DNA of 64,000 nucleotides from Candidatus Raymondbacteria bacterium RIFOXYA2_FULL_49_16 (GCA_001789205.1 MFYT01000058.1:1-64000), one strand, 5' to 3'; positions 40,179-63,391 are shown, numbered from the stretch's first letter. Notes: a model not told the origin generated them from the letters alone. Numbers and translations: made by a program.

Positions 40179-40359
40179 AGTATGCCTTTAGCACTCAAGT
40201 ACTTCCTTGGAACAGCCGATATTAAATATGCAAATCGGTGTTTCACCATAAAAGGGGCCGGAAAAAACGAATTTCTGGTCCTTTTTTATTTAATCCATGC
40301 AGAAAAGCCTGGAAACCAGACTCCCTCTATAACCAATATCGGCAGATTATCGCAGGACT

Positions 40360-41937
40360 TTAGGGATTTCTGGAAGTGGAATCGGGCTGCTGGCCCCGCT
40401 GCTGCTTGGCGGCAATGATATCGATGGACTTGTTTATATAGTCCCGCTTCGGATGTTTTGAATCGAGATCTAGGGCCTTACGGAAATAGGCAAGACACTC
40501 CTGGTATTTCTCGGTTAATCGGTTGCGAAAATAAAAATCAGCGGCTTCAAAATACGCGTCCGGGTTGGTCTTTGCCGCTGTAATGCCCTTCAGAAAATAT
40601 TGCTCAGCATCGCTGAGACGCGACAATTGTTCGCACGACCTGCCGGCATAGACATACCCGTCAAGACGGGTCGGATCAATCTCCACTGCTTCCTGAAATT
40701 GCGCCAACGCCTCGTCCCGCCGCTTTAGCTTGAGATACGCCTGTCCCAGATATAGCCGGCCATCAAAAAGATAGGGGTTTTTTCCAATAGCATCCTCAAG
40801 CAACGGCAGCGCTGTTGTGTTCTTGTTTTGCACGACATAGAGAATCCCTAAATGCATTTTCGCCGATCCAAAGTCCGGGTTTGTTTCGAGCGCATTTTTC
40901 AAATAGAATTCCGCCTTGTCATAGTTCTGCAGGAAGGTATAGGCAACACCCAACAGGTCCGCGACCGCCGGGTTCTTCTTTCCCGATTCAATCGCTTCCT
41001 TGAGCACATCACGCGCGTCGAAATATTTCCCCTGGGCAATAAGCAGTCCCCCGAACCGGAGACGATATTCGACTGAGCCTGGGTTCTGCGCCACTGCCTG
41101 CGAATAGCACTGGAGCGCGTCGCCATAGCGCTGCATGCTCTCGTATAGGCTACCCAAACTCGCCTGGACCGAAGGATTAAACCCCATGCGCGATAGCGCC
41201 ATCTTGTATTCGTAGAGCGCCATCTCGTTGTCCGCCTTGAGCCGGTAGATATCGCCTAGTACTTCGTGAGGAGAAGCCAGGTTCGGATCGACCGTTGTAG
41301 CGGCCTGGGCCTCGTCCTGAGCACGGTTAAAATCTCCTGCTGTGAGATAAAAGCGGGCGAGACTTACCCGGGGCTTTCCATTGGCCGGCGCCACTTTAAT
41401 TGCCTTTTGAAACATTTCCTTTGCCTCGGCAGGTTTTCCCATCAACTCGTACACTTCCCCCAGGCCGGTCATATATTCAGCATCCTCTGGCTTAAGATCG
41501 AGGGCCCGGGAATACTGCTGTTGGGCTTTGGTGAGATCACCGGAAAAACGGCAGGCGACCGCCAGATTATACAGAATATCAGCGTTGTTTCCCTGCGTAT
41601 TCAGCAGCTTTTCGTAGAGGGGGATGGCGCGCGCATGGTCACCAACGGCAGAATAGGCGCTGGCAAGGTTGATCGCGGCTTCTTTGACTTCAGGATTTAT
41701 TTCAATGCATTTCTCGTACAGGGCGATTGCCCGGTTGGGTTGCCCGGAAAGAAAATAGGCGTTCCCCAAATACAGGATATTTTCGTACCGGTCGGGCCGT
41801 TCTTTCAGGGATTTTTCGAGGGTAAGAATGGCGCGTTTGTAGTCGCGTATGGCAATGAACATCTTTGCCTCGGAAACCGCGTCAGCAAAAAGGGCGGCCG
41901 CAAGGCATGCAATAAGCAGAAGAACGATGTGTTTCAT
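40360..41937 (-). CDS. exported TPR-repeat protein (last gene of the large operon)
   Basis: 525 residues with a signal peptide (about 1-20) ending near AVSEA. The mature chain carries about 13 tetratricopeptide repeats, e.g. YLGNAYFLSGQPNRAIALYE and YLGQAYLKLKRRDEALAQFQ, with consensus G/Y/A/P positions well kept. A short Gln/Pro-rich tail follows. It is 12 bases after the propeller gene. TPR scaffolds here probably bring together periplasmic parts of the machine. A 182-base gene-free gap, with only a weak hairpin, separates it from the FlgM-like gene. Confidence 0.87.
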   Translation of the reverse strand: MKHIVLLLIACLAAALFADAVSEAKMFIAIRDYKRAILTLEKSLKERPDRYENILYLGNAYFLSGQPNRAIALYEKCIEINPEVKEAAINLASAYSAVGDHARAIPLYEKLLNTQGNNADILYNLAVACRFSGDLTKAQQQYSRALDLKPEDAEYMTGLGEVYELMGKPAEAKEMFQKAIKVAPANGKPRVSLARFYLTAGDFNRAQDEAQAATTVDPNLASPHEVLGDIYRLKADNEMALYEYKMALSRMGFNPSVQASLGSLYESMQRYGDALQCYSQAVAQNPGSVEYRLRFGGLLIAQGKYFDARDVLKEAIESGKKNPAVADLLGVAYTFLQNYDKAEFYLKNALETNPDFGSAKMHLGILYVVQNKNTTALPLLEDAIGKNPYLFDGRLYLGQAYLKLKRRDEALAQFQEAVEIDPTRLDGYVYAGRSCEQLSRLSDAEQYFLKGITAAKTNPDAYFEAADFYFRNRLTEKYQECLAYFRKALDLDSKHPKRDYINKSIDIIAAKQQRGQQPDSTSRNP

Positions 41938-41949
41938 GGTTTCGCGTTC

Positions 41950-43941
41950 CTAGAACCGGATATTGAGAAGCGTTTCCGCATACCCGCGATGGTACCGGGA
42001 AACACCTCCATAACATCCAATAAAAACATATGATGGGGTGGCGCATATTGACCGGACCTGCCCGGAAACAAGTCCATCGCTTGCCATCAGCCGTCTCCAT
42101 TCACCAGCGCTTGTATCATAAATATAACATCCCGCATCATGGGTTCCAACCCAAAGCGTCTTCCCTATCGCCCGCATTGCAGTAATGGTATTCCGTTCTT
42201 CTCGAGCCATGCCGTACACACTGTCCGGAGTGATAGGCAGGGCGACAAAATCCCTTCCTGCGCCTTTGCTGACAAAAACACCTTGGGTCTTAAAAGCGGC
42301 ATACACGTCCTGCCCAATATGTGTAACTGCAACGGCTCCAGGCTTATCGTCAAGAAATGACCCTATGACGCTATCGCGTGAAAAGTCGAACCGTTTCAGG
42401 CCATTACCCAATGTGCCGATCCAGAGGCCAGCACTATCGGCGCATAGAGCAGTAACCCGCCAGGACTTTGTTCCGGCAAGCAACGAGAAGGTCTCTTGTT
42501 CCCTGTGAAAACAGATGACCCCCGCGGGACTTCCCAGGAAAAAATCGGTCCGGTCCGCCAGTTTTTCGATGCAGGAAATATCGTAGAGGGAGCGGCCATC
42601 ATTGGTTTTAGTAAAAAATGCGTATGCATCCGCTTTGCAGTCCGCATACCCGAAACCATGATACCCGCTATAAAACAGCAATCCCCGATCGAACAGAAGC
42701 GCGGTAATGTTCGGTTCCAACACATCGAACCGGTCGTCAAGATGGGACGCTAGCTGGAATTGCTCCACACTGAAAAGATCGCAATACCCGCCCTGATACC
42801 CATACCCCGCGCACACAAGGCTGTCGGTAGCGGTTATAACCGACATGTTTTGCCGGGAAAGACCGGCGCGCATGGGAACAAATTCAACCTCTTTTTTGCG
42901 GATAACACCGGCACCGCTGTTTTTATCGCCATACCAGATGGAATCGGGAAAATTGAGCATGCACTGGATTTGGAGTTCGTCGATGCCACGTCTCCGCTCG
43001 CTGACAAACTGGATCCACACATCCTCACGATCGTGATACCGCCACAACCCAAACGGGGTTCCGCACCACATGCCGTCAGTCTCTTCCTCAAAGACATAGG
43101 CGCCCCTGGTTGGAAAATTGCGTGCGATGGTCGCCGTGTCCCCGCCTGCGCCGCACCGCCATACCCCAAAATCAGAGGTGGCTATCCAGAGCTGCCCTTT
43201 GCGGTCCATGACATCCCAAATACTGGTATTCTTGTCCAATATCCGGTTAAAAAAGATCTGTCTGAATGAGTTGCTCTGTTTGTCGGGGGTATAGAAAAAA
43301 AGCTGCCCGCCTTCGAACCCTATATAGAGCCCATTGCCATGCGACTTTAAACAGGTAATCCGCGTCTTTGACCTGACACCGGGGACATGGAAAGGAATAA
43401 ACACATGTGAGCTCTCTGGTCTCAGAAAAATCGAACCGTTTTCAAACGCGCAGAACAATCCCCTGCCTGGTAAATACTCCACAGCGAGTGCGCGGCCTGA
43501 ATCGCCTGCCGGAAAGACCGGTTCGCGAAAAAAAGACCGGGATTGAGCATTGAACCGGGCGCACCCCCTTTCCGTACCCACCCACAGTTCTCCCTTGGCC
43601 ATACACAGGTCGTACACTTCTTCCGATGGTAACCCATGATCGAGTCCAAACCTTGTCCAGATACCTGTCCTCGGGTAGTATTGCCGCAGGCCTTCGGCTG
43701 AAGCAAGCCAGAGGGGCCCTTTTTCTCCTTCAGGAGCCAGCATTGCGTAGACCCTGCTCATTTCAAGAAACCGGACACATTGCGATGTATCAAAGTTTAT
43801 ATTCCGCGAGGGTGGGACAGAAAAAACGCCGAAGAGGATGTACAAGATAATGATGAGAAGAGCTGCGGATATCCCGATGAAGAACGCCGTGACCGACCGC
43901 CGGCGCCTGCTTTGTTTTCTATACGCGGCGAAAAATTCCAT
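41950..43941 (-). CDS. membrane-anchored beta-propeller protein
   Basis: 663 residues. A basic start (RKQSRRRRS) and one membrane helix (about 18-42) put the rest in the periplasm. The rest is propeller blades of the two-component-regulator type: GPLWLASAEGLRQYYP, GELWVGTERGCARFN, GQLWIATSDFGVWR, KTLWVGTHDAGCYIYD, and SYVFIGCYGGVSRYH. No kinase, Y_Y_Y or DNA-binding domain follows. The 920-residue propeller at 6553 has the same blade type, so the two are probably related. Likely a sensor or docking subunit next to the ExbD/ExbB motor. Confidence 0.85.
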   Translation of the reverse strand: MEFFAAYRKQSRRRRSVTAFFIGISAALLIIILYILFGVFSVPPSRNINFDTSQCVRFLEMSRVYAMLAPEGEKGPLWLASAEGLRQYYPRTGIWTRFGLDHGLPSEEVYDLCMAKGELWVGTERGCARFNAQSRSFFREPVFPAGDSGRALAVEYLPGRGLFCAFENGSIFLRPESSHVFIPFHVPGVRSKTRITCLKSHGNGLYIGFEGGQLFFYTPDKQSNSFRQIFFNRILDKNTSIWDVMDRKGQLWIATSDFGVWRCGAGGDTATIARNFPTRGAYVFEEETDGMWCGTPFGLWRYHDREDVWIQFVSERRRGIDELQIQCMLNFPDSIWYGDKNSGAGVIRKKEVEFVPMRAGLSRQNMSVITATDSLVCAGYGYQGGYCDLFSVEQFQLASHLDDRFDVLEPNITALLFDRGLLFYSGYHGFGYADCKADAYAFFTKTNDGRSLYDISCIEKLADRTDFFLGSPAGVICFHREQETFSLLAGTKSWRVTALCADSAGLWIGTLGNGLKRFDFSRDSVIGSFLDDKPGAVAVTHIGQDVYAAFKTQGVFVSKGAGRDFVALPITPDSVYGMAREERNTITAMRAIGKTLWVGTHDAGCYIYDTSAGEWRRLMASDGLVSGQVRSICATPSYVFIGCYGGVSRYHRGYAETLLNIRF

Positions 43942-43964
43942 GAGAGGGGATCACCGTTCGCGCA

Positions 43965-44453
43965 TCAGGAGGGCGGGATGAGGGAGAACCCTTTCATGCC
44001 CACGGCCTTGGCGCGATCAATGACCTGCATGATCTTTTCGTGATAGGTAGTAATGTCGCCCTGGACGATCAGGACGTCCTTTTTGTAGCCCTGCTTGATA
44101 CACTCACTAATGCGGTATTGCAAATAATCAAACGCCTTCTTTCGTTCTTCGTCCCATTTGCTCCGGTCTTCTGACGCAGTGAGCGCAAACTCCTCGCCGT
44201 TGATTTTCACCAGGCCGTCGCGCACAAGATAGTGGTCTTTTTCAATAAGATCGGCGCCGACGAACACGACAATATCTTTCTCCTTCTTTTCATCGCCGCC
44301 CGCCTTCTTGCTTCCTCCTATGGGAAACTTGATGGCAACACCGTAGATATAGGTGGCCGACATGATGACCATGAAAAAAATGATGAGGGTAGTAATACAA
44401 TCGACGAGGGAATTAATATTAACAGTATCTTCGGTATCGGTTCTGAGTTTCAT
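43965..44453 (-). CDS. ExbD/TolR-like protein
   Basis: 162 residues. A short cytoplasmic start, one membrane helix at about 15-38 with the key Asp, D18, in VNINSLVDCITTLIIFF, then a periplasmic domain (DIVVFVGADLIEKDHYLVRD ... DVLIVQGDITTYHEKIMQVI) of normal ExbD plan. Asp in this position carries protons in ExbD/TolR/MotB. It should pair with ExbB at 45299. A second ExbD-like protein next to it lacks this Asp, so this one is probably the proton-conducting partner. Confidence 0.87.
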   Translation of the reverse strand: MKLRTDTEDTVNINSLVDCITTLIIFFMVIMSATYIYGVAIKFPIGGSKKAGGDEKKEKDIVVFVGADLIEKDHYLVRDGLVKINGEEFALTASEDRSKWDEERKKAFDYLQYRISECIKQGYKKDVLIVQGDITTYHEKIMQVIDRAKAVGMKGFSLIPPS

Positions 44454-44469
44454 ATGATTTTTCGCCTTA

Positions 44470-45279
44470 TTATTTTGCTATTTTTTTTGCCTTCGTGTCT
44501 GTATCTGTTTTTTTCACCACGTCGATAGAAGCGTCGGAACGGGTTACAAAAACAAATTTGGAGATGGCGCACGAGGTGTCTTTGGCCATGTATACCACCT
44601 CAAGGATTCGCCCGTAAAACGCCTTATTGTCAGCCTTGATCATAAGAGGAATGTTGTCGCTTATTTTTTTCTCGTCCTCGGCGGTAAGACGGGGTTTTTT
44701 TAACCGGTCCCGCGAATAGTTCTCTCCAAGCACCATTTCATCGACGATCTCTTTCTTGCGTTTCTTCAGGGCCTCGGGTATCTGGTCGAGCCGCAGATAG
44801 GGGCTTATCTCGGTCTTGCACCTGCTACAGGAATATGCCGGAGGCCGAACGGCTATCTTGGTCGTCTTTGCCTTTTCCTCATCAATCTCGATTTTAAGGT
44901 CTGGGAGCGGCTTTCCCGACATATCGGTGAGGGAATTCGGCACATAATCACCCTGATCGGACCTGAAGGGCAGTGCGCAATTCGGACATTGACGCGGCAC
45001 GCTCCCCTTGCCGGAAAAGGCCACCAGCCCGGTGGAATCGCCAACCACGTTACCGCCCGCACCTACTTTTGCGGGAAGAATATATATCTCGAGATTGGTG
45101 GTGTCTTGTTTTGCGGAATACAATACCGGCGGAAGCTGAAGGATCTGATCGAGTGATGCCTCCTTTTTCATGGAAAGGGAAATGATGGCAAGGGCCATGA
45201 GAATGAGCGCCGAGATGTTGATCATCGGCGTCAGATTCACATTGTCGGCCTTCTGCTGCGCGCGTCCCTTGAATTTCAT
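44470..45279 (-). CDS. ExbD-like protein with Asn at the proton site and a four-Cys insertion
   Basis: 269 residues, about 120 more than a normal ExbD. The membrane helix starts NLTPMINISALILM: the essential intramembrane Asp of ExbD (LTP-L-I-D) is N21 here. The periplasmic part has an insertion with C98-x2-C101 (RQCPNCALPF) and C151-x2-C154 (SCSRCKTEI), the spacing of a zinc ribbon, and long charged linkers. The last third (IPLMIKADNKAFYGRILEVV) returns to the ExbD fold. It likely works as a non-conducting structural subunit beside the normal ExbD at 43965. Cys pairs in the periplasm could instead be disulfides. Confidence 0.8.
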   Translation of the reverse strand: MKFKGRAQQKADNVNLTPMINISALILMALAIISLSMKKEASLDQILQLPPVLYSAKQDTTNLEIYILPAKVGAGGNVVGDSTGLVAFSGKGSVPRQCPNCALPFRSDQGDYVPNSLTDMSGKPLPDLKIEIDEEKAKTTKIAVRPPAYSCSRCKTEISPYLRLDQIPEALKKRKKEIVDEMVLGENYSRDRLKKPRLTAEDEKKISDNIPLMIKADNKAFYGRILEVVYMAKDTSCAISKFVFVTRSDASIDVVKKTDTDTKAKKIAK

Positions 45280-45298
45280 TTCACTCCCCTGCCGTTAA

Positions 45299-46033
45299 TT
45301 ATGCGGTAAGCGCATCAATAAGAATGGTGACTGTTTCCTCGATCTGGAGAACATAGTTCTCGATCATGGACTTTATCCAATTGAACAGGACCAGCGATGG
45401 AATGGCCACCAATAAACCGCCTGCGGTGGTAATAAGGGCGACCGAGATACCACCCGCCATTTCATCGGCCTTGATGCCGCCGGGAGAATTAGCGATGGAC
45501 ATGAAGGACTCGATGAGACCCCAAACTGTTCCTAAAAGACCCAGAAGGGTCGCAATGTTCGATATGACCGCAATGGCGCCAAGATGGGTCTCGAGGGCCG
45601 GGATTTCACTACTCGCCTTTGTCTCGGTTCCCTGGAGCATCCACTGTTTAAGATCGACAACGTTTAAGCCCTTGGCCACGCCATCCTTGTACTTTGCCAG
45701 TGTGGTACCCAGGATAGAGGCAACCAATCCGCCCTTTTTCTGCGCAAGGGCCTCCATTTCAGCGACAATGGCGTTTTTATCGCCGTTGTTGTTTTTTACC
45801 GACTCCTCAAGGGTCTTAACAAACTCAGTGGGTTTGAGCTTGAGCTTCTGGAGGACAATAACTAAAAGCCGCTCAACCGTGATATACAGCGCAATGACTG
45901 AAAGACCCAGGATGGGGTGCATGACCCAACCGCCTGCCTTGTACATTTCTATTGGGTTGAGTGCATGACAGAACCCGGCCATGAACAGGACCAGGACAAC
46001 CACGCGTGAAAACATCCTCTGGATTGTCGGCAT
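45299..46033 (-). CDS. ExbB/TolQ/MotA-family proton channel protein
   Basis: 244 residues. A signal-like helix (about 8-24) precedes the usual three helices: WVMHPILGLSVIALYITVER, then LETHLGAIAVISNIATLLGL followed by GTVWGLIESF, and MAGGISVALITTAGGLLVAI with NWI. The ETHLGAIAVISNIA to LGLLGTVWG stretch is the family core. With ExbD subunits it makes a proton-driven motor in the inner membrane. Two ExbD-like genes follow, but no TonB or TolA. An extra signal peptide in front is seen in some ExbB subgroups. Confidence 0.9.
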   Translation of the reverse strand: MPTIQRMFSRVVVLVLFMAGFCHALNPIEMYKAGGWVMHPILGLSVIALYITVERLLVIVLQKLKLKPTEFVKTLEESVKNNNGDKNAIVAEMEALAQKKGGLVASILGTTLAKYKDGVAKGLNVVDLKQWMLQGTETKASSEIPALETHLGAIAVISNIATLLGLLGTVWGLIESFMSIANSPGGIKADEMAGGISVALITTAGGLLVAIPSLVLFNWIKSMIENYVLQIEETVTILIDALTA

Positions 46034-46064
46034 TGTGATTCCTCCTTACGTTTGTCTCAGTGTA

Positions 46065-49000
46065 TTAATGTTTAACATTGATCGATTGTATCTGTTTTTT
46101 CGCGAACTCCTTGGCCTCGCGGTCGCAGGCGCCGCCGGTGCGCACATCTTCGTAGAACTCCTTGGCCTTGCGCCAGGTGCCTTCCTTATCATAGCAGAAG
46201 GCCAGATAGTTTTTGGTCCAGCACATCATGGGAAAATCGGGATATTCGGTCAAAACGCGGGTATAGTACTTTTTCGCCACAGACCAGTTCTCATTACCCC
46301 ATTCGATCGTGCCAATCTGGAAAAGGGCATTGGCAACCAGCTGGCTCTTGGGGTGGGTTTGCATGAAAAAATTGAACTCCTTGACCGCATTGGCCTGGTC
46401 CTTCATTGAAAGAAGGCACTCCGCCCGCTGGTATAAGGCCACTTCGGCAAGAGCGCCGCTGCTATCGAGTTCCATGACCTGTTTAAACACATCGCGCGCC
46501 TTCCTGAAGTCCTTTTGGGCGTAGTACGCGTTTGCCTTGAAATAATAGGCGTTGATAGTGAACTTACTATCGGGAAAATCACGGATCATACGGTCGGCCC
46601 ATTTAATGACATCAGCTATTTTCTCGGCATTGTTAAGCGCCTCGATGAGCTTAATAATGGCAGCAGCGCGGAGATCGGGCTCGGCGGTGGTATACTGTTC
46701 GTATACAACTCGGTACGATTCAACCGCATCCATGTACTTCTTTTGCGCAACATACACATCGCCGATACCCATGCGCGCAATAATCTTGTCCGCCACATCG
46801 TTGCTGGAGGACTCTATCTTTTCATAGTTCTGGATGGCGCCTTCGGGGTCGGTTTTCGCCTTGATTGAGCCGATTTCTCCCTGGGAGGCGCGGAAATACT
46901 CAACATCGGCCTTTTTCACTTTTTCATAGGCCTCAATGGCCTTGGCGTCGTTGCCTTTTTTCGCGTACAACGATCCAAGCTGATAGGCTGAGGCTGAGAG
47001 AAGGTAATTTTCGGAAAACTTGAGCATCTTTTCCAAATACTCGATGGCAGCATCGTCGTCCTGGAGACCGGTGCGGTAGATTTCAGCTATTTTAAAATAA
47101 AAATTGGGCGCCGAGGGGATACCGGGTCTTTTTTTCATGAACTCAAGCGCGTAGGTGATCGCTTCCTTGCTTTTACCTTCGCCTTCCAGCGCCTCAACAT
47201 ATCCCAAACCTGCGCCGTCGACTTGGTCAGAAGAGTCAAATTGTGTAAAAATTTTATTGTACATATCGCGCGCTTTGCCATAATCGCCGTTCTGGCTGTA
47301 CGATTTACCAAGCAGATAAACGGCGGCTGAGGTAAGGGCGTGAGACGGGTTTTTCTCGATGAACTTGGTGAACGCGGCAATGGCCTCGGGATACATCTTG
47401 TCGCGGAAAAAGGATTCCGCGATCCTGAAATTGATCTGGATCGCCCGCACCTCCTCGCACCGCGGATTGTCAAGGATTTCGTCCTTGAATATGGCGCGCG
47501 CCCGCTTGTACTCACCCTTGCGGATATAGCAATCCGCCAGTTCGCCAAAGGCGGTCATGAGTGTCACTGAGTCTTGCGCCAGCCCGATGGCCTCGTTAAA
47601 GGTGGCAATGGCGCTATCGGTGAGGTTCATCTCCTCGCCCTTGAGTTTGCGGCCTATTTCAATGAGGATCTGCGCCTTGGCCTGGTTGTCGGTAAGCACC
47701 TTCAACTGCTCGGTGTAATCATTGACTATTGAGGAGTCAGAGCCTTCAACGCCCAGAATACGATATTTTTCGACCAGGGCGGTCTCGCTCTTGAGACCGC
47801 CAAGCGTGGTACGGGCCTGCTCCTTGAGTCCCAACTTCATATAGCACTCACCAATGGCAAGAGTTGACTTCTCGATCCAGTCGCGCGCCTGGTCGTAGTT
47901 GCTGATGAGCTTGTCAAATTCTTCGATGGCAAGCCGGTATTTCATGCTTGCGTCAGAGGAATCGACCCCTTCGGCAAGATACATATAAATCCGGCCCAGC
48001 AGATACTGGGTCTGCGCGGCAACCGGGCTATCTGGAAACCGGCTGATGCTCTGTCTGAGAAACTGCTGCGCCTTGCCATAATTTTTCTGGTCTATATAGT
48101 ATTTGCCGATTTTAAAAGCCGAGCCTGGATAAAACGCCGATGATCTGAAGTTCTCGCACACATCGTTATACGCCTTGATAGACTCAAGCGTATCGCCCTT
48201 CGCTTCATAGCACGAGGCAAGCAGGTATTGGGCGTTGGCCGCGTATTCGGTGGTGGAATAGTTCTGCAGCACCTTGGCGTAGCTTTCAACGGCATCGTCC
48301 CACTTCTTCTCCTCGAAGTAGTAGTTGCCGATGTCGAGCTGCACGCGCGCCTGGTCTTCGATTACCTTGATGGAATTTATCGCCTTGGAAAATATCTCGT
48401 AGGCCTTTTTTGATTCATTGACCTTGAAATAGACGCCGCCCAGTTTGATGGACACCTTGCTGATAAGGTCGCTCTGGTGGTAAACATTGACGAATTTCAG
48501 ATAGGTCTCAATGGCGCTGTTGTACAGGACCAGGGCTTTTTGGCGGAGTTCGTCCCTGGCTGCGCCATCACCCTCACCTTCGGCTTTCTGCATGAGCTGG
48601 TTCGCCTCTTCCTCGTACGAATCGCCAATATATTTCTGTGCATCGTCGACCAGGTCTGATTCCTGAAAAAAGTCGAGTATAAGCTGGTATTGTTCGCGCG
48701 CCTTGCCGCCTTCGCCAAGCTTGGCGTAACACTGGCCGATGAGCAGCACCACGTCGGAAAGAAGCTGCGCCTTGACTTGGGTGGTGTCGGTCGCCATTTC
48801 GCGCATCATCTCAGCGCGGGTATAGAGCTGTTTGGAGAGGTCACGATTGACCTCCTTCACCTTGCCCCTGTCGATGTTAAAATAGGTCCCGGGTTTGAGC
48901 TCCGTCTGCCTGTATTTGGGAAAATTCATGGATTCGGGACGGTTCTGTTCTATTTTCTCGAGGTTTGCTATGGCCTGCCTATAGCTGCGCTTGGAATCGT

Positions 49001-49406: not shown

Positions 49407-49417
49407 GCGTTATGTTT

Positions 49418-51811: not shown

Positions 51812-54314
51812 TCTTTATCTCCCGTACAAAATAATTACCCAAAGCTGTTGAGAACTGTTTACCGCCATAGGGCGCCATTCCCCTGTTACCTAAATCGTCC
51901 TCTGTCTCGACCCACATTTCCCAGATACCGCTTGACCACTGGGTCGCATTGATGTTCAAAAAAGACGCCTCGCTAATGGCCCAGGTCTTTCTTTCCGATT
52001 TTGCTCCAAACAGGACCTGCTGTTGTCTAGTAAGCTGGTCTATTGATAAAACATACCGTTTAACCGGCGTTGCATTCGCTCCCGAGTATACACGCAACCC
52101 GGTGATTGGATCGGAAGTATAGTTGGTTGTCTTTGGATGAAAACAGAGTTCCACGGACACAATTTTTCCAGCACCAACATCCCTGATCCCTGTGCCAAGC
52201 CCTGCATTTCCCGCAGCAGTCTCGTCGGGCCGCAGAAAGACATCGAATATGTTACCGAGCTGGGTAAGATTGGTCGCCTTGGACGAGGTGTACAGAGGCG
52301 CATACTTGAGATCGGCCTTTGGATCGTATGACGGCGACCACGTGGCATGCGGGGCTACTTTGTCCCACATATATTTTGTGGCCGTGGAGAACGAAGAGAT
52401 GTAGACACGCGGTTCGTTAAAATATTTCCCTCGTGAAAAAGCGAGAAGCACAAATTCTTTTCCCCCATTTTTGATCCCTGATACGTGCAGAGGAAGATTT
52501 TGGAAAGGGTTTCTATAGACAGTATTGTCATAGGAACGCACTAATTCGGGAATAGCTGACTTGGTATTGTTTGTGACCATGGTAGCAGTATACGCGGCTA
52601 TTCGAGCTGGTGTTGTTGCTGATATATGCCATCCCGCGCTCAAAAAAGCAACCTTCAGACCACGGTCAGAGGCAAAGGAAAAAACCGTATCTGTTCCGAA
52701 CTGGTTGGTATCAGCCTCGCCGTATCCAAGAATGGAACCGGGTTTGACGCAGAGAGCAATATCAATAGGGTTAAGATTCCCACGTTCGGGAATATACGTG
52801 CCATTGCGCAGCTCGAGAGAAAAGACGCCGGTACCACTCTTCCGGGCAAGCGGCGAAACATGATAAAGCGTATCATTGACGGAAACAACCTGTTTGATCA
52901 CACCCAGTTCATCAATGAGATGTTTTTGGGGGGGCGTCTCAAAAATGCAATCGGCCAGAAGACTGTCGTAGGTACGGCCAATGGCGTGCACCTTGAACGA
53001 GTCTATCTGGAAACTGCCCGTGAAAAAGTTGGCCACGAGATTGCGCGTAGCGAGCCAGACCTGCACTGTATCCTGAAAGGTTGGATCTCCGAACGTATCG
53101 AAAAGAAAGGGGACTTCTTTGCCCAACAAAACCCATTTATCCTCGTACGAGTTTGTAATGATATTGCCCGCTGCGCGCAACCGATCAACCTTGATCTCGG
53201 CATAGGCGCTCCTGATGGAGATGTCATCGAAAAGCGGGGTCCATTGTTTTTTCCGGTAACTGCCAGGCCAGACACCCTTGACAACAACCCATTTCTTTCC
53301 CAATCCCGTGACCAGGGTATCGGTCTTTGCAAAAGAGACGGAACTTGCGCTGCCGGGTATTGGCATAAAGGAGCTGTCAAAAAAGGCGTTTAGCTGGTTT
53401 CCGGTATTGTACACAGTGTCAACTCTTCCGAGTCTGCCAAAGGCATAGAAATACGTCGCGGTTCCTTTGGTTTCGGAAAGAATGACGCTGGAATCGGCCC
53501 GCAGGTATACGGTGTTCGCGCCGATTTGGAAATTCTGATTGAAGCCCAAACTGTCCTTGTTCCTCACAATCCTGAAGAGATAAGTGGAAAGCGAGTCCAG
53601 GGGCAGGATTTCCGAATAGCGGCAGTAGACGATGGCGGACAGGCCCGCGGTATCAAACTGGCCAGTGATTACAGCCGCATTGTCAAAGGTATTGAGCGCA
53701 CCATTATTGATGATAAACCGCTCGGGAACCCCGCCGCCCAGAGGAGGCGAATAGGTGATGGCATTCTCCTGTCCGCGTGAAAAATCAGCATTCTCCATGC
53801 CAACGTTCAGGTTGGTCACGGCCCGCACCCCATATTGAATCCTTTCGAACGCATTGGTATTAAGGACGTCGTATACGTACGAGACGCTGTCGAACCACAC
53901 TGAATCAAGCTTACCGGAATGGGAACGGTAGGTGATAGCTGTATCTTTGTTTCTCCGGCCCGCTTTTTCCCCAAAACTGCGGGCAACCAAAATCCGGTTG
54001 TCGCTGTTTTCAGCTTTTTTATAGATATTGTACATGATGATGTCGCCGGCAATATCTGGGTCCCAGCCTGAGGCCCGGGTAAAAAATATTTTGAACGCGA
54101 CGTTCTCCTGCCAGACACGGCCGTCACCAACAGGCAGCACATCGCAAATGCTGTCAGTGGTCCCGTCAGTGTAATAATACGCAGGGACAACCGTCACCTG
54201 GACGCTGTTCGTATAATTTTCAGGATCGGGTTGCACGGGCGGCGGCACATCGCAAGAATTGAACGCCAGTATCCCTGCAAGCGCAATGACGATTACTTTT
54301 ATACGTGGTTCCAT
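51804..54314 (-). CDS. large lipoprotein, paralogue 2 of three in tandem
   Basis: 836 residues, lipobox ILAFNSC near residue 21. Shares with its two neighbours an Ig-like start (FKIFFTRASGWDPD, MYNIYKKAENS), a central GLGKKWVVVKGVW, the segment SRGKYFNEPRVYISSF and the end WEMWVETEDDLGNRGMAPYG. Overall similarity looks moderate: the shared marks are kept but the sequences between them differ strongly, so the duplications are old. Extracellular or periplasmic function unknown. Confidence 0.8.
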   Translation of the reverse strand: MEPRIKVIVIALAGILAFNSCDVPPPVQPDPENYTNSVQVTVVPAYYYTDGTTDSICDVLPVGDGRVWQENVAFKIFFTRASGWDPDIAGDIIMYNIYKKAENSDNRILVARSFGEKAGRRNKDTAITYRSHSGKLDSVWFDSVSYVYDVLNTNAFERIQYGVRAVTNLNVGMENADFSRGQENAITYSPPLGGGVPERFIINNGALNTFDNAAVITGQFDTAGLSAIVYCRYSEILPLDSLSTYLFRIVRNKDSLGFNQNFQIGANTVYLRADSSVILSETKGTATYFYAFGRLGRVDTVYNTGNQLNAFFDSSFMPIPGSASSVSFAKTDTLVTGLGKKWVVVKGVWPGSYRKKQWTPLFDDISIRSAYAEIKVDRLRAAGNIITNSYEDKWVLLGKEVPFLFDTFGDPTFQDTVQVWLATRNLVANFFTGSFQIDSFKVHAIGRTYDSLLADCIFETPPQKHLIDELGVIKQVVSVNDTLYHVSPLARKSGTGVFSLELRNGTYIPERGNLNPIDIALCVKPGSILGYGEADTNQFGTDTVFSFASDRGLKVAFLSAGWHISATTPARIAAYTATMVTNNTKSAIPELVRSYDNTVYRNPFQNLPLHVSGIKNGGKEFVLLAFSRGKYFNEPRVYISSFSTATKYMWDKVAPHATWSPSYDPKADLKYAPLYTSSKATNLTQLGNIFDVFLRPDETAAGNAGLGTGIRDVGAGKIVSVELCFHPKTTNYTSDPITGLRVYSGANATPVKRYVLSIDQLTRQQQVLFGAKSERKTWAISEASFLNINATQWSSGIWEMWVETEDDLGNRGMAPYGGKQFSTALGNYFVREIKIE

Positions 54315-54322
54315 ATACTCTT

Positions 54323-56902
54323 TTATTTAATCAATATCTGCCGTACGCTGATACTGCCGGATTGTATGCTGAAAGAATTTGTAGCGCTCAGATATGGGGC
54401 AACGCCCCGGTTCCCCAAATTATCCTCTGTTTCGATCCACATGTCCCAGATGCCGCGGTTCCATTGTTGCGCATTGATATTATAAAAGGCGATGTTTCCC
54501 AGGCTGTAGCTGACAGCGAATCCGTTGCTGTGGGGATTGTAGGCTTGCCGGGCAAGTACCGCAGGATCAATTTCATAATACATATTCGGTTTTTGGTAGG
54601 TCCGCATCCCGGTTACGGGATCGAGTGACTGGAACTCCAGGCTATAATTGAAACCAATGCGCACGGAGATTATTTTGCCAAATCCCACATCACGAACGGA
54701 ACAGTCTGCATTTTGGTCCGCAGGTTTTGACGAAAGAAAAACATTGAATATGTTGGGCATTGAAGTGGTCGAAAGGTCTGTGATCCGGTTGTCGGCAGGA
54801 GAAGAAGCGAGATAATACAATGGGGCATATTCGGTTGTAGAAGTAGACCAGTTTTCGTGCCAGGAAATGTGCGGTGGAATATAGTCCCACACATAAGTAT
54901 ACGGCGAGGTAAACGAAGAGATAAAGACCCGCGGCTCGTTAAAAAAGCGGCCGCGCGCATAAGCGATGAGCACAAATTCCTTTGAACCGCTATTACAATG
55001 CGCAACATGAAGCGGCATTGCCCTGAATGGATTTGTAAAGAGCTTCTCCCCTCCTCTGCCGGGAAAATAAAGATACTTTTTTCCGGATATGGTAGGCGAT
55101 GGCGCATAGAAATAGGCTGAGAAGATTGCATAGTAAGTGGGGTTGGCAACCGGTTGCGTGGAGGGGATGAGCTGAGCATTGTCAGCTTTGCTAAAATATT
55201 CTTGCAGCGCTTCGCTTGAATATGTATTGTTGTAGGTTGCGGCCGGGGAAACCTGTTCGAGAGGAACAAAGGTGAACCAGTTTGCCACTGGAATTTTCTT
55301 GAGAACTGACAAGATTTCAGTGTATACGGAATCTGGTTTTGAAAGATCGTTGAGTTTGGACTCCTGATGTCCAAGGATGGAGCCACGGGTCACCATCTGG
55401 TGAATATAAGACGAGTTTTTCCGGGTAGGTATATCCTTGGCGTCCGCATACTGGATTTGCATAAGCTGCGCCCCGGCACTATATAGGTGCGCCAATGGTG
55501 AAACACGGTAATTTGCGGTATAGTCCGGGGTAAATCCATCGCTGATGATACCACCTCTTGTTGTAAGGATACTGTTGATCGGCGGAGTCTCCAGAATGGC
55601 ATCGGGCCAGTCGCCACCATAGCCAACCGCATTGTGCGTGGCTTTTGTAATTGGCGTGGGAAAAGAACCATCGCCTGAAAGGAGGAACTGGTTATAGAGA
55701 TTTCGGGTCGCAATCCACACGGAAACAGTTTCGGCAAATGATGTATCGCCAAAGGTATCGAATAAAAAGGGAGTGTAGTCGTCTAAAAGATAAATTTTCT
55801 TTTCAACGCTGTTGATGGCAATGTTCGCCCGTGATTGGTCGAGGGAAATGGCGCCATTGAAAGACCATATATTAATATTGTCGTATAGGGGGGTGCTCCA
55901 CTTTGCGCTGGTTAAAAACGCCCATTTTTGTCCAAAACCGCTTACCAGGGTATCGGTCTTTTCAACTGATATCCACCCAGGATCATTGGCAACAGGCGTG
56001 ACTGAAAAATGATTTTGAAGATTGCCAATGGAAAATGCGACCTCACCCCCAAATTTTCCAATTGATATGCCTGCCTGCAGGACCGTTGAGTCTGATACCG
56101 CCAGACTATATCCGCCGGGAACCGTGACATAAACCGACTCAGCTGGCACGCGGTTTTTCAAAAGGGAATCGAGTGAAAAAATCGTGGCAAACGGGATAAA
56201 CTTGGTGCTGGAATACCGGAAATATCTTAGATTTGAGACTCCGGTTGTGTCGAAAGTTGCCCGGATTGTTGCGACATTGTTGACCGTATAATCGTCGTTG
56301 CTATTGATGCTGAAAGACTGGACAGTTCCCCCTCCCAGTACAGCCGCATGTCTGAGCGGGCTGTTTTCGAATCCCGAAGAAAAGAAGAAGCTGCTGCGCA
56401 GGGAAAGATTGGTAAGGGCGGTTGCCTCAAACTGGAATTGGGCCTTGTCCTCGGTTCCAGTGATTACCAGCACCCGAACCGTTGCATGGTGAGTAAGCGT
56501 ATCGACACGGCCTTTGCTATCGGTATAGTAGACAGTATCGCCCGCAATTATACCGCCACCGCCGCCATAGACCCTGCATACCAGGTTGTTCTGCCTGGTT
56601 TTAACATAATATTTGTACAGATTAAAAACTGCGGGGCTCTGGATAAGATCAGGATCCCACGTGGCGCTTTCTTTCCGGAATTCGACCACATAGGCCTTGC
56701 GGTTGTAGAAGGTATCGGGGCCAAAGGCAATGGTATCGAGAAGGGTATCGGCAACCGTGATCTGGACCTGGTTGGCATACCCGCCCTCATTGACCGGCTG
56801 CACCGCCTTTTCGCACGAGACAAAAAAAGCCATGCTCGCGGCCAACGCCGCAAACCCTATGCAAAGAAAAAATCGTGAAACCTTCATGCGCCTTTTACAC
56901 AT
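54323..56902 (-). CDS. large lipoprotein, paralogue 3 of three in tandem
   Basis: 859 residues from ATG 56902; an ATG at 56887 with AAAAGG before it is an equal choice. Lipobox ASMAFFVSC near residue 30. Has the shared set: WDPDLIQSPAVFNLYKYYV, SGFGQKWAFLTSAKWSTPLY, ARGRFFNEPRVFISSF and WDMWIETEDNLGNRGVAPY. It is the longest of the three and the first transcribed. The gene before it encodes a DUF5683-like membrane protein. Confidence 0.8.
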   Translation of the reverse strand: MCKRRMKVSRFFLCIGFAALAASMAFFVSCEKAVQPVNEGGYANQVQITVADTLLDTIAFGPDTFYNRKAYVVEFRKESATWDPDLIQSPAVFNLYKYYVKTRQNNLVCRVYGGGGGIIAGDTVYYTDSKGRVDTLTHHATVRVLVITGTEDKAQFQFEATALTNLSLRSSFFFSSGFENSPLRHAAVLGGGTVQSFSINSNDDYTVNNVATIRATFDTTGVSNLRYFRYSSTKFIPFATIFSLDSLLKNRVPAESVYVTVPGGYSLAVSDSTVLQAGISIGKFGGEVAFSIGNLQNHFSVTPVANDPGWISVEKTDTLVSGFGQKWAFLTSAKWSTPLYDNINIWSFNGAISLDQSRANIAINSVEKKIYLLDDYTPFLFDTFGDTSFAETVSVWIATRNLYNQFLLSGDGSFPTPITKATHNAVGYGGDWPDAILETPPINSILTTRGGIISDGFTPDYTANYRVSPLAHLYSAGAQLMQIQYADAKDIPTRKNSSYIHQMVTRGSILGHQESKLNDLSKPDSVYTEILSVLKKIPVANWFTFVPLEQVSPAATYNNTYSSEALQEYFSKADNAQLIPSTQPVANPTYYAIFSAYFYAPSPTISGKKYLYFPGRGGEKLFTNPFRAMPLHVAHCNSGSKEFVLIAYARGRFFNEPRVFISSFTSPYTYVWDYIPPHISWHENWSTSTTEYAPLYYLASSPADNRITDLSTTSMPNIFNVFLSSKPADQNADCSVRDVGFGKIISVRIGFNYSLEFQSLDPVTGMRTYQKPNMYYEIDPAVLARQAYNPHSNGFAVSYSLGNIAFYNINAQQWNRGIWDMWIETEDNLGNRGVAPYLSATNSFSIQSGSISVRQILIK

Positions 56903-56906
56903 ACCA

Positions 56907-57431
56907 TCAGAATGAATGATATACCTGCAATCCCTTATGCGAATCTTTCATGTAAAGCGAAAGCCCTGTTTTGGATAAAGAGGATTGCCCGGCCGATCCG
57001 TTCTGCATTTCCTTTTTCCCGGTAAACAAAAGAGCATCCACAATACCATATCCATAGACGGCAGCGGTAAGACCGAGAAACACATAGGACCATAGTTGGG
57101 CGTTCTGGTAGTTGTCGTACGCCTCGTCCCATTTGGTTTTGATGGCCTGCCGCTCGTCATAAAACTCGACCTGGTCATTTTTTGTATCGTAGGTCTGGGT
57201 TTGTTCCGCATAGCTTTCCTTGAGACTAATGAAGCGAATGGTGTTGTGAAGACACACCGTAAACCCTGCCATGATGCCCAGGCCCTTGAGCGTGTTTTTA
57301 TTAAGGAATTCGCCTGATCCCGCGGACAGCTGTCCCATGCCGGGCAGAATGGCGGATTTTATCCCGAGATCGGGATTGCCTCCAAAAACCAGCCCCGAGG
57401 CCAGAAGGGTGATGACGAGTATATATTTCAT
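56907..57431 (-). CDS. DUF5683-like membrane protein
   Basis: 174 residues with a signal peptide (about 1-17). GIKSAILPGMGQLSAGSGEF is the 'sallPG.GQ.y.g' motif of DUF5683, found mostly in Bacteroidota and relatives. Membrane segments follow (LKGLGIMAGFTVCLHNTI; LWSYVFLGLTAAVYGYGIVDALLF), with a charged coiled part between. Function unknown in general; often near cell-envelope genes. It lies between the barrel and lipoprotein genes. Confidence 0.75.
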   Translation of the reverse strand: MKYILVITLLASGLVFGGNPDLGIKSAILPGMGQLSAGSGEFLNKNTLKGLGIMAGFTVCLHNTIRFISLKESYAEQTQTYDTKNDQVEFYDERQAIKTKWDEAYDNYQNAQLWSYVFLGLTAAVYGYGIVDALLFTGKKEMQNGSAGQSSLSKTGLSLYMKDSHKGLQVYHSF

Positions 57432-57444
57432 GGCATATCCTCCT

Positions 57445-60400
57445 TTAGTTTCCCGCGTACACTTTTATAAAAAACTGCGTGTCCTTGCCGTCAAAAAGGT
57501 GGCCTGTCTGGAAAACAGTATCGTAGTTTAAAACATCGTAATCGTTGTTGACGAGGTTCATGCCAAGGATAAGCGTGACATTGTAGCCCGACACATTGTC
57601 CGTGCTGAGCATTTGGAACGTCTGGACCCTGCGGGAATCGCTCTCGGCGCGGATGAGGCGGTCGAAGCTCTTCTTCCACTGGACGCCGTATTGCAGCATG
57701 GTCTTTTCAGCCACCTTGAAATAGCAGCGCAGGATGGGGGTACTCGAGAATTCGTTGGTATTGTCCCTGCGATAACGGGCCCAATCAAGACGCAGGTTCG
57801 TGGAGTCTTCATCGCCAAGACGGGTAAGGGCATTGAAAGAATCGCGCGGATCGTCATTGGCGTCGCTGGAACTGTAGGACCAGGAAACCTTGAACTGGGG
57901 ATTGAAGGAAAGCCGGTTGAGAAAATTGAGGAAACGCATCCGGTTGCTGAAGTCAACGTTAAAATTGATGGAGTAGTCAAATTTGTTGACCAGGTAAAGC
58001 CGCTTGAGCATGGATGCTGTATAAGGCTCCCATCTGAATTCGTACTGAGTGGTATCGAGCGCCTGGTTGCGAAGCGTACGCATCGTATAGAAATTGCCGT
58101 CGAGACCCATGCGTTTTTCAAGACCAAGGGCGAGGCTTGCGGAATAAACGAAATTGGGGATATTATTGTAAGTGACTCCGCCAATGGCATTGCTGACCAC
58201 AGCGTTGCGGTATCGAAGTTCATCGGTCTGGTAATAATAATCCTGATAAAGATATTCTATGTCTTCGACCTCCTGAAGACGGATGACATCGTTCCGTATG
58301 TTGTCGCGCAGATACTGGACTTCGCCACCGGTAAAATAGGCAAGGCCCAAACTCCGCTTTACCACGTTGAGCATGGCCGAACCCTTGAGCGCAAAGGATC
58401 TGCTGTCGGAAAAATCTTCCGCAACCGACGTTCCATTGTCGTAGCCAATTGAGCCGTTGCCGATGAGACTGGGCTGATCAACCGAGGTGTCGCTCGCCCG
58501 GCTGAAATCGAGGTCAATGGCTTTTTCGTACAGGGCGCTTGCGCTGATTTCAAGGTTTTTTACGGGAGTATAAATTAATTTTGTATTTGCGCCGCGGATA
58601 CCCTGGCTCTTCCAACCATTTGAGGTTAGAACATACGAGGCCTTGATTCCTTTGGGAAGATCGGGATAGGGATCATCGTCTTCAACGTCCCAGACGCCAT
58701 TGTTGTCCATATCATTGTCGAGTGAAAAGATTGGCGGGTCTTTTTCGTATAGAAGGAAATCTTCCTTGTAGTCGACAATACCATTGTGATTGCGGTCGTA
58801 TTGGTCGACATAGACGCCGTCATCGTCACCATAGAAGGCATACAGACCATTGGGCAAGTAGGTATAGTTGGCCTTGCGGTTGTTGCGCTCGTTTTCGCGC
58901 GCGGACGCCTTGAAACTGGCAAAGGTGCCGTCGGCCGCCCATCTGCTTGAAGCGCTTCCGCTGCCGAGATCTCCGGGATAGATCATACGGTCGCTCTCAA
59001 TGTACAGGTCGTCGTCGTCGTTGTCGTCGAGCATATGAAAATTGTTGTTGAAGTGCTGGGGATACCAGAGATAGTCGGGAATATCGTAATCGTACTTGTT
59101 ATGATTCCGATCGTAGAGGCGCGAATAGGAAAAATGCTGGCTGACCAGGGGTATCTCGAGGGCTGGATCGTATTCCGGATCGACATTGTAGAACATGCCC
59201 CTGAGCATGAGCAGGTTCTTCAGTATGTCCCTGTCGTATTTCAGATATGCCGCGGTACGGTAGACAGGATCGAAGCGGTCGCCGCCAGGATAGATATAAT
59301 CCTTTGAATTGACAGCCACTTCGCCGCTAAAGGAGACGCCCAGGACTTTTCCCTTGAAATCAATGCCATAGGTAACACTGCCGCAATTGATTGAGTACGT
59401 ATAAGAATAGGTACGCTTGTTCGCCTGGTACACGGCTGTTTTTCCCGTACCTGTGGCATAGATGACCCGCGGTGATTTTGCTATATAATCGCCGAACCAT
59501 GAATTGCCGAACTGTTTAAAATCCCTTCCATGAAGGGGTCCGGTGATCGCCCTCACATCGCCCCATCCGGAAAGTGAAACATCCTCGTATGGGCTCCAGG
59601 TACCAGACTGCTGGGTCTGATAGGTACCGGTAATTGAACGGGTAAAGGGTTGGTCGAGTTGAACAACCTGGGTTTGATCGTTTCGCTGGCCCGCATAGCC
59701 GTACGCGACCATTTTATCAGTGGAGACAAAAACCAGATAATTGCCGGAGACGGTAAAGGAAAAGTCAATGCGCTTGACCTTGGTTGAATCGCCAAAATGG
59801 CGGCGCGCAGCGCTGGATGTATTGAACGCGACAATGATAGGGCTGTTTCCTGACCGCTCTACCGGAAGATTTGAAGAGACCAGCCGGAGATCTTCGCGTA
59901 CCAGATACGTTGCGCCTTCGCCATCGGCGCCAAGGTCTTCCCCGTTCATGGTCATGGTGACATTGTCAACGTAGACACCTGGATCGTCAGTGGTGTTGGG
60001 CGTCATATCGTAAAATTCAAAATGGATTTCAGTGGGAATATAATCGTTGGGAACGTCGCCGGAAAAGATATCTTCGCCTTTTTTAATGTCGCTGCGGTGG
60101 TGGTTGAGGTAGGTGACGCCAAGGTCGACAATGTTAGCGATGTTGGTTTTACCATGGAGACCCCAAAGAATGTCATAGTCGCCATAAATGGACTTGTTTG
60201 AATAGTCGCTGTATTTGTCGTATTGAAGGTTCCAACCCTGATCGGTAAAGGCGGTCATACCCCAGTTTTTAGTGATGTATTCGTCGTCGGGAAGCAGTTC
60301 GTCGGAAACCATGCCCTGCCAGTTGCGCATGTCTTCGCGGTAGTAGCCGATATAGGAACGGCCTGAACGGTCGTTCTGCGACATGACAAAAGGCCGCGTA

Positions 60401-60945
60401 CGGGAAATGAGCGTGGTAAACTTGAGCGCCGGGGTCCAGATGTCCCAGCGAACGCCCTGGAAATTGAGCTTGTTCATGGTGAGCGGGGTAAACCGGGTCT
60501 GGATCTGGGATCCAATGAGAAAAACCGATTTCATGTCGCCTAGACCATCCTGGGTCATAATGAGGTTGTTGAAATTTTCGGACACCAAGGAGGTTTGGAA
60601 CATATTGCTATAGGCGTTGACCGTGGAATCGCCGGTCTCAAGACCCGATGCGGGGTCGCGGAACTTGATGTTGCCGTCAGAGTCGAAATAGGTATTTCTC
60701 TCGGTCTCAAGACCATAGATGAGGTATCCGTTGACAATATGCCTTCCAAAATTATCATAATAAGGAATGACCTGCCGTTCGATCTCTTTTTTTGAATAGC
60801 CGGATATGCCGAAATTGTTATAATATTCCTCTTCCTCTTTCAGCGATTCGCTCAGGGATTCCTGGCCATATGCCGTGGAAAACAGCGGCCCCCCGCCCGC
60901 GCACCACAAGAGCAGCAATAGACTGAGTTTTAAGTGCTTAACCAT
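57445..60945 (-). CDS. giant exported outer-membrane beta-barrel-type protein
   Basis: 1166 residues, signal peptide (about 1-27), GGAGGT just before the ATG. The N-terminal part has YDNFGRHIVNGYLIYGLETE and SVFLIGSQIQTRFTPL, with Ig-like segments later (KVKRIDFSFTVSGNYLVFVS). About residues 715-765 hold EF-hand/thrombospondin-3-like Ca2+ loops, DRNHNGIVDYKED and DNDMDNNGVWDVEDDD. The C-terminal half is full of aromatic amphipathic strands (YQDYYYQTDELRYRN; NFNVDFSNRMRFLNFLN), typical of a large outer-membrane barrel. It recalls SprA-like giant barrels by architecture only. First gene of the operon. Confidence 0.8.
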   Translation of the reverse strand: MVKHLKLSLLLLLWCAGGGPLFSTAYGQESLSESLKEEEEYYNNFGISGYSKKEIERQVIPYYDNFGRHIVNGYLIYGLETERNTYFDSDGNIKFRDPASGLETGDSTVNAYSNMFQTSLVSENFNNLIMTQDGLGDMKSVFLIGSQIQTRFTPLTMNKLNFQGVRWDIWTPALKFTTLISRTRPFVMSQNDRSGRSYIGYYREDMRNWQGMVSDELLPDDEYITKNWGMTAFTDQGWNLQYDKYSDYSNKSIYGDYDILWGLHGKTNIANIVDLGVTYLNHHRSDIKKGEDIFSGDVPNDYIPTEIHFEFYDMTPNTTDDPGVYVDNVTMTMNGEDLGADGEGATYLVREDLRLVSSNLPVERSGNSPIIVAFNTSSAARRHFGDSTKVKRIDFSFTVSGNYLVFVSTDKMVAYGYAGQRNDQTQVVQLDQPFTRSITGTYQTQQSGTWSPYEDVSLSGWGDVRAITGPLHGRDFKQFGNSWFGDYIAKSPRVIYATGTGKTAVYQANKRTYSYTYSINCGSVTYGIDFKGKVLGVSFSGEVAVNSKDYIYPGGDRFDPVYRTAAYLKYDRDILKNLLMLRGMFYNVDPEYDPALEIPLVSQHFSYSRLYDRNHNKYDYDIPDYLWYPQHFNNNFHMLDDNDDDDLYIESDRMIYPGDLGSGSASSRWAADGTFASFKASARENERNNRKANYTYLPNGLYAFYGDDDGVYVDQYDRNHNGIVDYKEDFLLYEKDPPIFSLDNDMDNNGVWDVEDDDPYPDLPKGIKASYVLTSNGWKSQGIRGANTKLIYTPVKNLEISASALYEKAIDLDFSRASDTSVDQPSLIGNGSIGYDNGTSVAEDFSDSRSFALKGSAMLNVVKRSLGLAYFTGGEVQYLRDNIRNDVIRLQEVEDIEYLYQDYYYQTDELRYRNAVVSNAIGGVTYNNIPNFVYSASLALGLEKRMGLDGNFYTMRTLRNQALDTTQYEFRWEPYTASMLKRLYLVNKFDYSINFNVDFSNRMRFLNFLNRLSFNPQFKVSWSYSSSDANDDPRDSFNALTRLGDEDSTNLRLDWARYRRDNTNEFSSTPILRCYFKVAEKTMLQYGVQWKKSFDRLIRAESDSRRVQTFQMLSTDNVSGYNVTLILGMNLVNNDYDVLNYDTVFQTGHLFDGKDTQFFIKVYAGN

Positions 60946-61022: not shown

Positions 61023-61052
61023 AAAATAAAATAGTCGGGGAAGTAGAGTCAA
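61023..61052 (-). promoter_or_regulatory. candidate promoter of the large operon
   Basis: On the minus strand, TTGACT (61052-61047), 18 bases, TATTTT (61028-61023), about 78 bases before the barrel ATG at 60945. The only intergenic gap over 100 bases in the 40-64 kb minus-strand block, so it is the natural start of the operon. Confidence 0.5.
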
Positions 61053-62959: not shown

Positions 62960-63351
62960 AACGGTAGTTGGCCCTCGCTTTCCGGCCTGGGAACGCGCAG
63001 GGAAGCGCTCTCCTTGCCGTTGATGATCATGGTTTTTTCAAGATCGGACGCCCCTGCCTGGAGGGAGACATTGCGGTAATCGTTGAGCTCATCCTTGAGA
63101 TTTTTAATGACCTTGTTCTTGCCCGAAAGTTCGGTCTTCATCTTGAAATAATTGAACAGGGAAACGACAAACCAAGTCAGGAAACCTGCGCCAAAGGACA
63201 CCAGCATGAGAAAATAGGGTTTCCATTCAACCCTTTTGATCAGGAAGCTGATCTCAATGGGATCGCCTTCGAAGAGGTTGCGGTTCGACATGATGAACAC
63301 CACCGCGACAAACAGGATACCAACGATAAAAAACCACCGTATTGCCCACAT
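62956..63351 (-). CDS. lapA: LapA-domain membrane protein
   Basis: 131 residues from ATG 63351 (AAAGGAG upstream); the longer open frame has no start signal. Two membrane helices (about 3-22 and 47-66), FIMSNRNLFEGDPIEISFLI between, then a coiled tail (TELSGKNKVIKNLKDELND). This is the LapA/DUF1049 layout, usually next to LapB. It ends with a short Arg/Pro-rich tail. Overlaps lapB (ATGA). Confidence 0.83.
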   Translation of the reverse strand: MWAIRWFFIVGILFVAVVFIMSNRNLFEGDPIEISFLIKRVEWKPYFLMLVSFGAGFLTWFVVSLFNYFKMKTELSGKNKVIKNLKDELNDYRNVSLQAGASDLEKTMIINGKESASLRVPRPESEGQLPL

Positions 63352-63391
63352 ACCTTCTCCTTTGTTCGGACACGAGTTGAGTATCCGTGCG

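Follow-up and report, generated by a model that had tools for sequence, protein, structure and literature searches.

An eleven-gene cluster shared by seven Fibrobacterota genomes is a candidate proton-driven machine spanning the cell envelope

Eleven adjacent genes of Candidatus Raymondbacteria bacterium RIFOXYA2_FULL_49_16, found in the 64,000-nucleotide stretch of DNA analysed here (the window), quite possibly encode a single trans-envelope machine that is driven by the proton motive force (PMF) and acts on a surface complex of barrel and lipoproteins, although we hold this reading tentatively. The parts that the sequence supports are an ExbB/ExbD-type motor, a TPR rod and a propeller anchored in the inner membrane, a predicted outer-membrane barrel with calcium loops, and outer-membrane lipoproteins. 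To our knowledge, few machines relay proton energy across the envelope from inner to outer membrane: Ton, Tol, Agl-Glt and type IX secretion (T9SS)/Gld. A 2025 survey argues that further proton-driven transducing machines await discovery (PMC12204202). The locus described here is a compact and conserved candidate in which the outer-membrane parts lie within the same operon, and the inner and outer halves can be tested together.

Results

The eleven genes occupy positions 40360-60945 on the minus strand and are transcribed from 60945 to 40360. The open reading frames, their common strand and the spacing of at most 31 bases, all reported in a first-pass annotation of the window, were confirmed. 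In the order of transcription, the intergenic gaps are 13, 4, 8, −8, 11, 31, 19, 16, 23 and 12 bases, the widest lying between the long TPR gene and exbB. The genes and the two flanking signals are:

57445..60945, minus strand: giant predicted outer-membrane beta-barrel, 1166 aa, signal peptide (AF2 strand pattern and Foldseek class, low confidence)
56907..57431, minus strand: DUF5683-family protein, 174 aa, signal peptide, invariant PGMGQL motif (27.2 bits, cut-off 26.7)
54323..56902, minus strand: lipoprotein A, 859 aa, lipobox FVSC, predicted beta-rich multidomain protein
51804..54314, minus strand: lipoprotein B, 836 aa, lipobox FNSC
49418..51811, minus strand: lipoprotein C, 797 aa, TTG start, lipobox AISC, 8-base overlap with the lipoprotein B gene
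46065..49406, minus strand: TPR protein, 1113 aa, N-terminal membrane anchor, not a lipoprotein (TPR, Pfam)
45299..46033, minus strand: ExbB/TolQ-family motor subunit, 244 aa (PF01618, MotA_ExbB, 94.5 bits)
44470..45279, minus strand: ExbD1, 269 aa, enlarged periplasmic domain (ExbD family, Pfam)
43965..44453, minus strand: ExbD2, 162 aa, proton-carrying Asp D18 (ExbD family, Pfam)
41950..43941, minus strand: Reg_prop beta-propeller, 663 aa, N-terminal membrane anchor (Reg_prop, Pfam)
40360..41937, minus strand: last TPR protein, 525 aa, signal peptide (TPR, Pfam)
61023..61052, minus strand: promoter-like site, TTGACT-18-TATTTT, in the 126-bp gap upstream of the barrel gene (consensus match only)
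40250..40286, no strand assigned: terminator-like 15-bp hairpin with A/T-rich sides, just beyond the last gene and between convergent genes (consensus match only)

Pfam and NCBIfam searches of the cluster returned DUF5683, TPR, MotA_ExbB, two ExbD domains, a Reg_prop propeller and a second TPR protein, and found no TonB, TolA, Pal or FHA-TonB domain among the eleven proteins, in agreement with the first-pass statement that TonB, TolA and Pal are absent. The genes at 61072-63946 share the orientation of the cluster but form a separate group, set apart from the barrel gene by the 126-bp gap. As a side observation, this group encodes a SPOR/TPR protein, a LapB-like protein with a zinc ribbon, a LapA-like protein and an apparent MiaB, and it lies upstream of the cluster in the related genome G001 too. 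For the limits of the unit, the comparative evidence is stronger than the promoter and terminator consensus matches.

Conservation of gene order in Fibrobacterota had been set beforehand as the main test on which the first-pass reading could fail. Profile searches of 168 genomes of the phylum, and of about 224 genomes sampled as relatives outside it, found five components (barrel, lipoprotein, ExbD1, ExbD2 and propeller) in the identical seven of the 168 Fibrobacterota genomes, which include the window genome (G000), G001, G033, G055, G057 and G070. The seven genomes are spread over five taxonomic families. Wherever contigs allow the order to be read, it is barrel, DUF5683, lipoprotein(s), TPR, ExbB, ExbD1, ExbD2, an accessory gene in some cases, propeller and TPR. 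The run from barrel to ExbD2 is whole on a single contig in G000 and G057, contig pieces of the other genomes are consistent with it, and the DUF5683 gene holds the equivalent place in G001, G055, G057 and G070. The propeller is found in all seven genomes, at one locus each, with the G033 copy split across two contig ends and the G055 gene on a separate contig. The flanks differ: the upstream MiaB/LapA/LapB/SPOR-type group is shared by G000 and G001, other genes stand there in G057 and G033, and the downstream neighbours vary between genomes. On this genome comparison, the co-occurrence and kept order of the cluster genes exceed chance. Because the five parts co-occur and keep their order amid differing flanks, the reading of the cluster as one machine is strengthened, and the idea that these are merely co-transcribed envelope genes with separate jobs, to which the unlinked G055 propeller lends some colour, becomes the least probable of those considered here.

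The relatives that carry the cluster are Fibrobacteres and Chitinivibrionales metagenome-assembled genomes (MAGs), and the analysis turned up no cultured strain with it. In G033 and G057 an extra Reg_prop protein follows ExbD2, the G033 protein being Fn3-like. These additional genes lie between ExbD2 and the propeller (L065, 508-2304; L030, 2967-5150), and the L065 protein resembles a lipoprotein that bears an Fn3-like domain.

The barrel has no Pfam, NCBIfam or PHROG family and no meaningful sequence relative in the PDB. The AF2 model has a pLDDT of 44.5 overall and about two dozen long predicted strands, and its top Foldseek matches are nearly all outer-membrane barrels, with TM-scores of at most about 0.33. 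Together with the signal peptide, these results support the first-pass proposal of a giant barrel at the level of class, while naming no relative. Conserved features include an N-terminal segment (residues 30-75) and two EF-hand-like calcium loops (residues 717-728 and 745-756), and these loops are kept in each of the seven barrel sequences long enough to include them. A beta-rich insert spans residues 306-433, the first part of which was modelled with a pLDDT near 70. Barrel orthologues in six genomes are 35-60% identical.

More distant barrels were also seen. Shorter relatives are present in two further genomes of the phylum, G007 and G019, unaccompanied by the motor genes (L034, 16624-18969; L032, 15763-18156). 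Tandem barrel-like proteins of ∼900 aa in Latescibacterota/Gemmatimonadetes MAGs (L040-L044) are distantly related to the cluster barrel, and the two tested had no Pfam family; we rejected the Latescibacterota barrels as the same system on the grounds that the match is distant and partial and that no ExbB gene was recognised nearby.

The three lipoproteins had been proposed to be paralogues, and this holds: B and C are 33-35% identical to A, and each of the three has a lipobox cysteine. They match no Pfam, NCBIfam or PHROG family and have no meaningful PDB sequence relative. The model of a lipoprotein, with a pLDDT of 54.5, is rich in beta structure, and its matches are mostly Ig- or Fn3-type multidomain proteins, with low scores. 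The window genome carries three copies and G001 apparently three, compared with one each in G055, G057 and G070, which points to a lineage-specific expansion.

A hydropathy scan found one N-terminal hydrophobic segment each on the barrel, the long TPR protein, the propeller and the last TPR protein; judged by its sequence context, the segment anchors the long TPR protein and the propeller in the membrane, whereas the barrel and the last TPR protein have it as a signal peptide. Both TPR proteins keep the family given to them at first pass, with the correction that the long one is predicted to be membrane-anchored and the last one exported. The predicted anchors, signal peptides and lipoboxes agree with the placement originally suggested, in which the motor is in the inner membrane, the TPR and propeller parts are in the periplasm and the lipoproteins and barrel are in the outer membrane. 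By sequence inspection, the membrane segments of the long TPR protein and propeller lack a histidine of the TonB/TolA docking type (PMC12204202).

Pfam confirmed the presence of one ExbB and two ExbD-like proteins, and one of the latter, ExbD1, lacks the normal aspartate. ExbB retains the pore-type motifs GLLGTV and ALITTA, and its profile matches solved TolQ/ExbB structures in the PDB, as that of ExbD2 matches solved ExbD. An extra, signal-peptide-like N-terminal hydrophobic segment is present on the window and G001 ExbB proteins and missing from the orthologues in the other taxonomic families. The ExbD2 aspartate, D18, is present in all six aligned sequences. By its ExbB pore segments and this aspartate, the predicted motor belongs to the MotAB/ExbBD/TolQR/AglRQS family. 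In M. xanthus, proton conductance is lost and the machine comes to a halt when AglQ carries the D28N substitution (PMC3858216); by analogy, the ExbD2 aspartate is predicted to be the critical residue of the cluster motor.

At the proton-carrying position of ExbD1, the window protein has Asn (codon AAC), compared with Asp in all six orthologues. The genome is a draft, and the codon could conceivably reflect an error of sequencing or assembly. The periplasmic insert of ExbD1 has CxxC motifs at residues 98 and 151; across the ExbD1 sequences of the seven genomes, the motif at residue 98 is present in 7 of 7 and a second one near residue 150 in 6 of 7. These motifs could bind metal or form disulfides. 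The insert has no meaningful PDB sequence relative, and the full-length ExbD1 profile is confined to the seven genomes among the 392 searched. No weak ExbD1 match outside the seven has the full-length insert, and the two that were inspected (G374 and G073) lie in ordinary ExbB/ExbD settings and were rejected as the same system.

Nine PF01618 genes are present in the window genome. By sequence inspection, a MotA of the flagellar type lies beside a MotB-like gene on contig C39, a tolQ-tolR-like set with a TonB/TolA-like gene on C97 and a Ton-like set on C11. The SprA gene (PF14349) is on C61, outside the cluster. On C73, an operon has the order TPR, TPR, ExbB, ExbD, STAS, ExbD, TonB, in which Pfam confirms ExbB, both ExbDs and TonB_C and the STAS domain was recognised by eye. 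In its layout this operon corresponds to the Agl/Glt core complex of Fibrobacter and Myxococcus (PMC3169522), and it further resembles FSU_2397-2403 of F. succinogenes, a locus with parts that increase on cellulose (PMC6851124). Its ExbD has matches in 148 of the 168 genomes (E<=1e-8), many of which reflect general ExbD similarity. In an ExbB tree, taken without M. xanthus sequences, the C73 protein joins those of C23, C48 and C80 (98/100) in a group that includes neither the window ExbB nor its orthologues. Since the genome has TolQR-, Ton-, SprA- and Agl/Glt-like loci of its own elsewhere, the window cluster appears to be an additional and distinct machine. This agrees with the first-pass expectation that the set is not a known one under another name: it is distinct from Tol-Pal, Ton, T9SS and Agl/Glt, and no earlier description of the conserved cluster was found in the open-access literature searched.

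Discussion

In the machine that we propose, an ExbB pentamer would enclose a mixed ExbD1/ExbD2 pair, which proton flow would move. The force would cross the periplasm by way of the enlarged head of ExbD1, the TPR rod and the propeller and so reach a complex of barrel, DUF5683 protein and lipoproteins. Held by the lipoproteins, the cargo, which could be a surface polymer, an adhesin or a substrate, would be moved along or across the outer membrane. A precedent is Agl-Nfs, which shows that surface glycan can be moved by means of one ExbB-type subunit and two of the ExbD type (PMC3858216). Counting against a single machine are the weak structure models (pLDDT 44.5 and 54.5), the lack of a membrane-segment histidine, the loss of the ExbD1 aspartate in the window genome and the unlinked propeller of G055. 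A solo barrel that is 70% identical to the cluster barrel, encoded in the same genome without lipoproteins or motor (L023, C100:13789-17208), suggests that the barrel may also have a motor-independent role. The solo barrel gene adjoins genes for a PAS/STAS histidine kinase and a response-regulator-like protein.

Comparison with known systems bears on how force might be passed on. The survey mentioned above proposes TPR-tolQ-tolR-tolR-vWA loci, which it describes in the PVC group, as candidates for transducing force (PMC12204202), and in layout the cluster is alike, with a TPR protein, a tolQ-like gene, two different tolR-like genes and a large periplasmic protein on a single-pass anchor. The anchored protein of the PVC loci, however, is a vWA protein with an SHLS/His docking motif, whereas here it is a Reg_prop propeller that lacks the motif, and the cluster adds a giant barrel and lipoproteins. 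By its position in this layout, the propeller would be the best transducer candidate, even though it lacks the docking motif.

Among the alternatives, an energised importer fares best, although we think it unlikely. Here the barrel and lipoproteins would resemble SusC/SusD or BtuB/BtuG, the motor would open the barrel to a large oligomer, and the TPR rod or propeller would replace TonB. Like Ton systems with receptors of these types, the cluster combines an ExbBD-type motor with a barrel and large surface lipoproteins, in this case within one operon; BtuB-BtuG and SusCD barrels are among the low-confidence Foldseek matches of the barrel; and Reg_prop propellers serve carbohydrate-sensing regulators as their sensor domains. 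The phylum, moreover, lives on polymers (PMC4704652). Yet the barrel matches no TonB-dependent-receptor or plug family in Pfam, NCBIfam or PDB sequence searches, the cluster encodes no TonB and no polysaccharide-degrading genes, and barrel copies number only one or two per genome, unlike substrate-specialised receptors. The single copy per genome leans slightly toward a general surface-transport or secretion machine over substrate-specific importers.

A protein-secretion machine, in which the giant barrel would be a motor-powered translocon by analogy with T9SS (SprA, the TPR lipoprotein SprE and GldLM), seems rather improbable. The giant barrel, long TPR protein and PMF motor are in common with type IX secretion and Gld gliding, and NCBIfam gave a PorW/SprE match, but this match is weak and generic (107.5 bits, cut-off 250). 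The SprA gene of the genome, moreover, lies elsewhere, on C61, for which reason T9SS identity was rejected, and the cluster barrel has no SprA match by sequence.

Membership in the Agl/Glt family, which would make the cluster a gliding or surface-transport motor, has a small chance. The Agl-Glt (Agl-Nfs) systems of M. xanthus and the Fibrobacter core share with it one ExbB and two ExbDs, TPR proteins, an outer-membrane barrel and lipoproteins (PMC3169522, PMC3858216). In contrast, the cluster has no GltG-type TonB/FHA protein, its barrel and lipoproteins have no sequence kin in any Pfam or PDB family, the operon with Agl/Glt core layout and TonB_C is the separate one on C73, and the window ExbB belongs to another clade in the tree described above; membership was rejected on all of these grounds except the second. 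The AglRQS parallel drawn at first pass therefore stands for subunit number and fails for kinship. Most likely, the cluster machine works like Agl-Glt or Ton and belongs to neither.

A Tol-Pal-like tether, pulling the outer membrane toward the wall or inner membrane, is very unlikely: the ExbB closest in the PDB to TolQ/ExbB, the propeller, the TPR proteins and the lipoproteins loosely recall TolQ, TolB, CpoB and Pal, but the cluster lacks TolA and any Pal/OmpA peptidoglycan-binding domain and has two ExbDs and a giant barrel, and a tolQ-tolR-like set lies on C97. Phage origin was rejected after six cluster proteins gave no PHROG match, and a Zorya-like defence role was rejected after PADLOC returned only generic TPR matches.

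With less assurance than the proposal of a single machine, we suggest that the cluster may represent a class apart among PMF-driven outer-membrane machines, marked by a giant calcium-loop barrel and a lipoprotein family peculiar to it, a mixed ExbD pair, an enlarged head with cysteine motifs on one subunit of the pair and, in this lineage, only one Asp-bearing subunit. The Asp/Asn pair is a natural variant for asking if the motor runs on one proton site. In nearly all Glt-like operons inspected in the phylum (L068, which is C73:95000-108000 of the window genome; L115-L121, L123, L125 and L126), an ExbD with Asn at the proton site is paired with an Asp-bearing one; since these operons have an Asn/Asp pairing of their own, the window pair probably arose by another route. 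Most of the Glt-like operons have a short gene between the two ExbDs, which looks STAS-like by eye in the window genome, and several then carry a gene that by eye resembles those for polysaccharide export (Wza-type).
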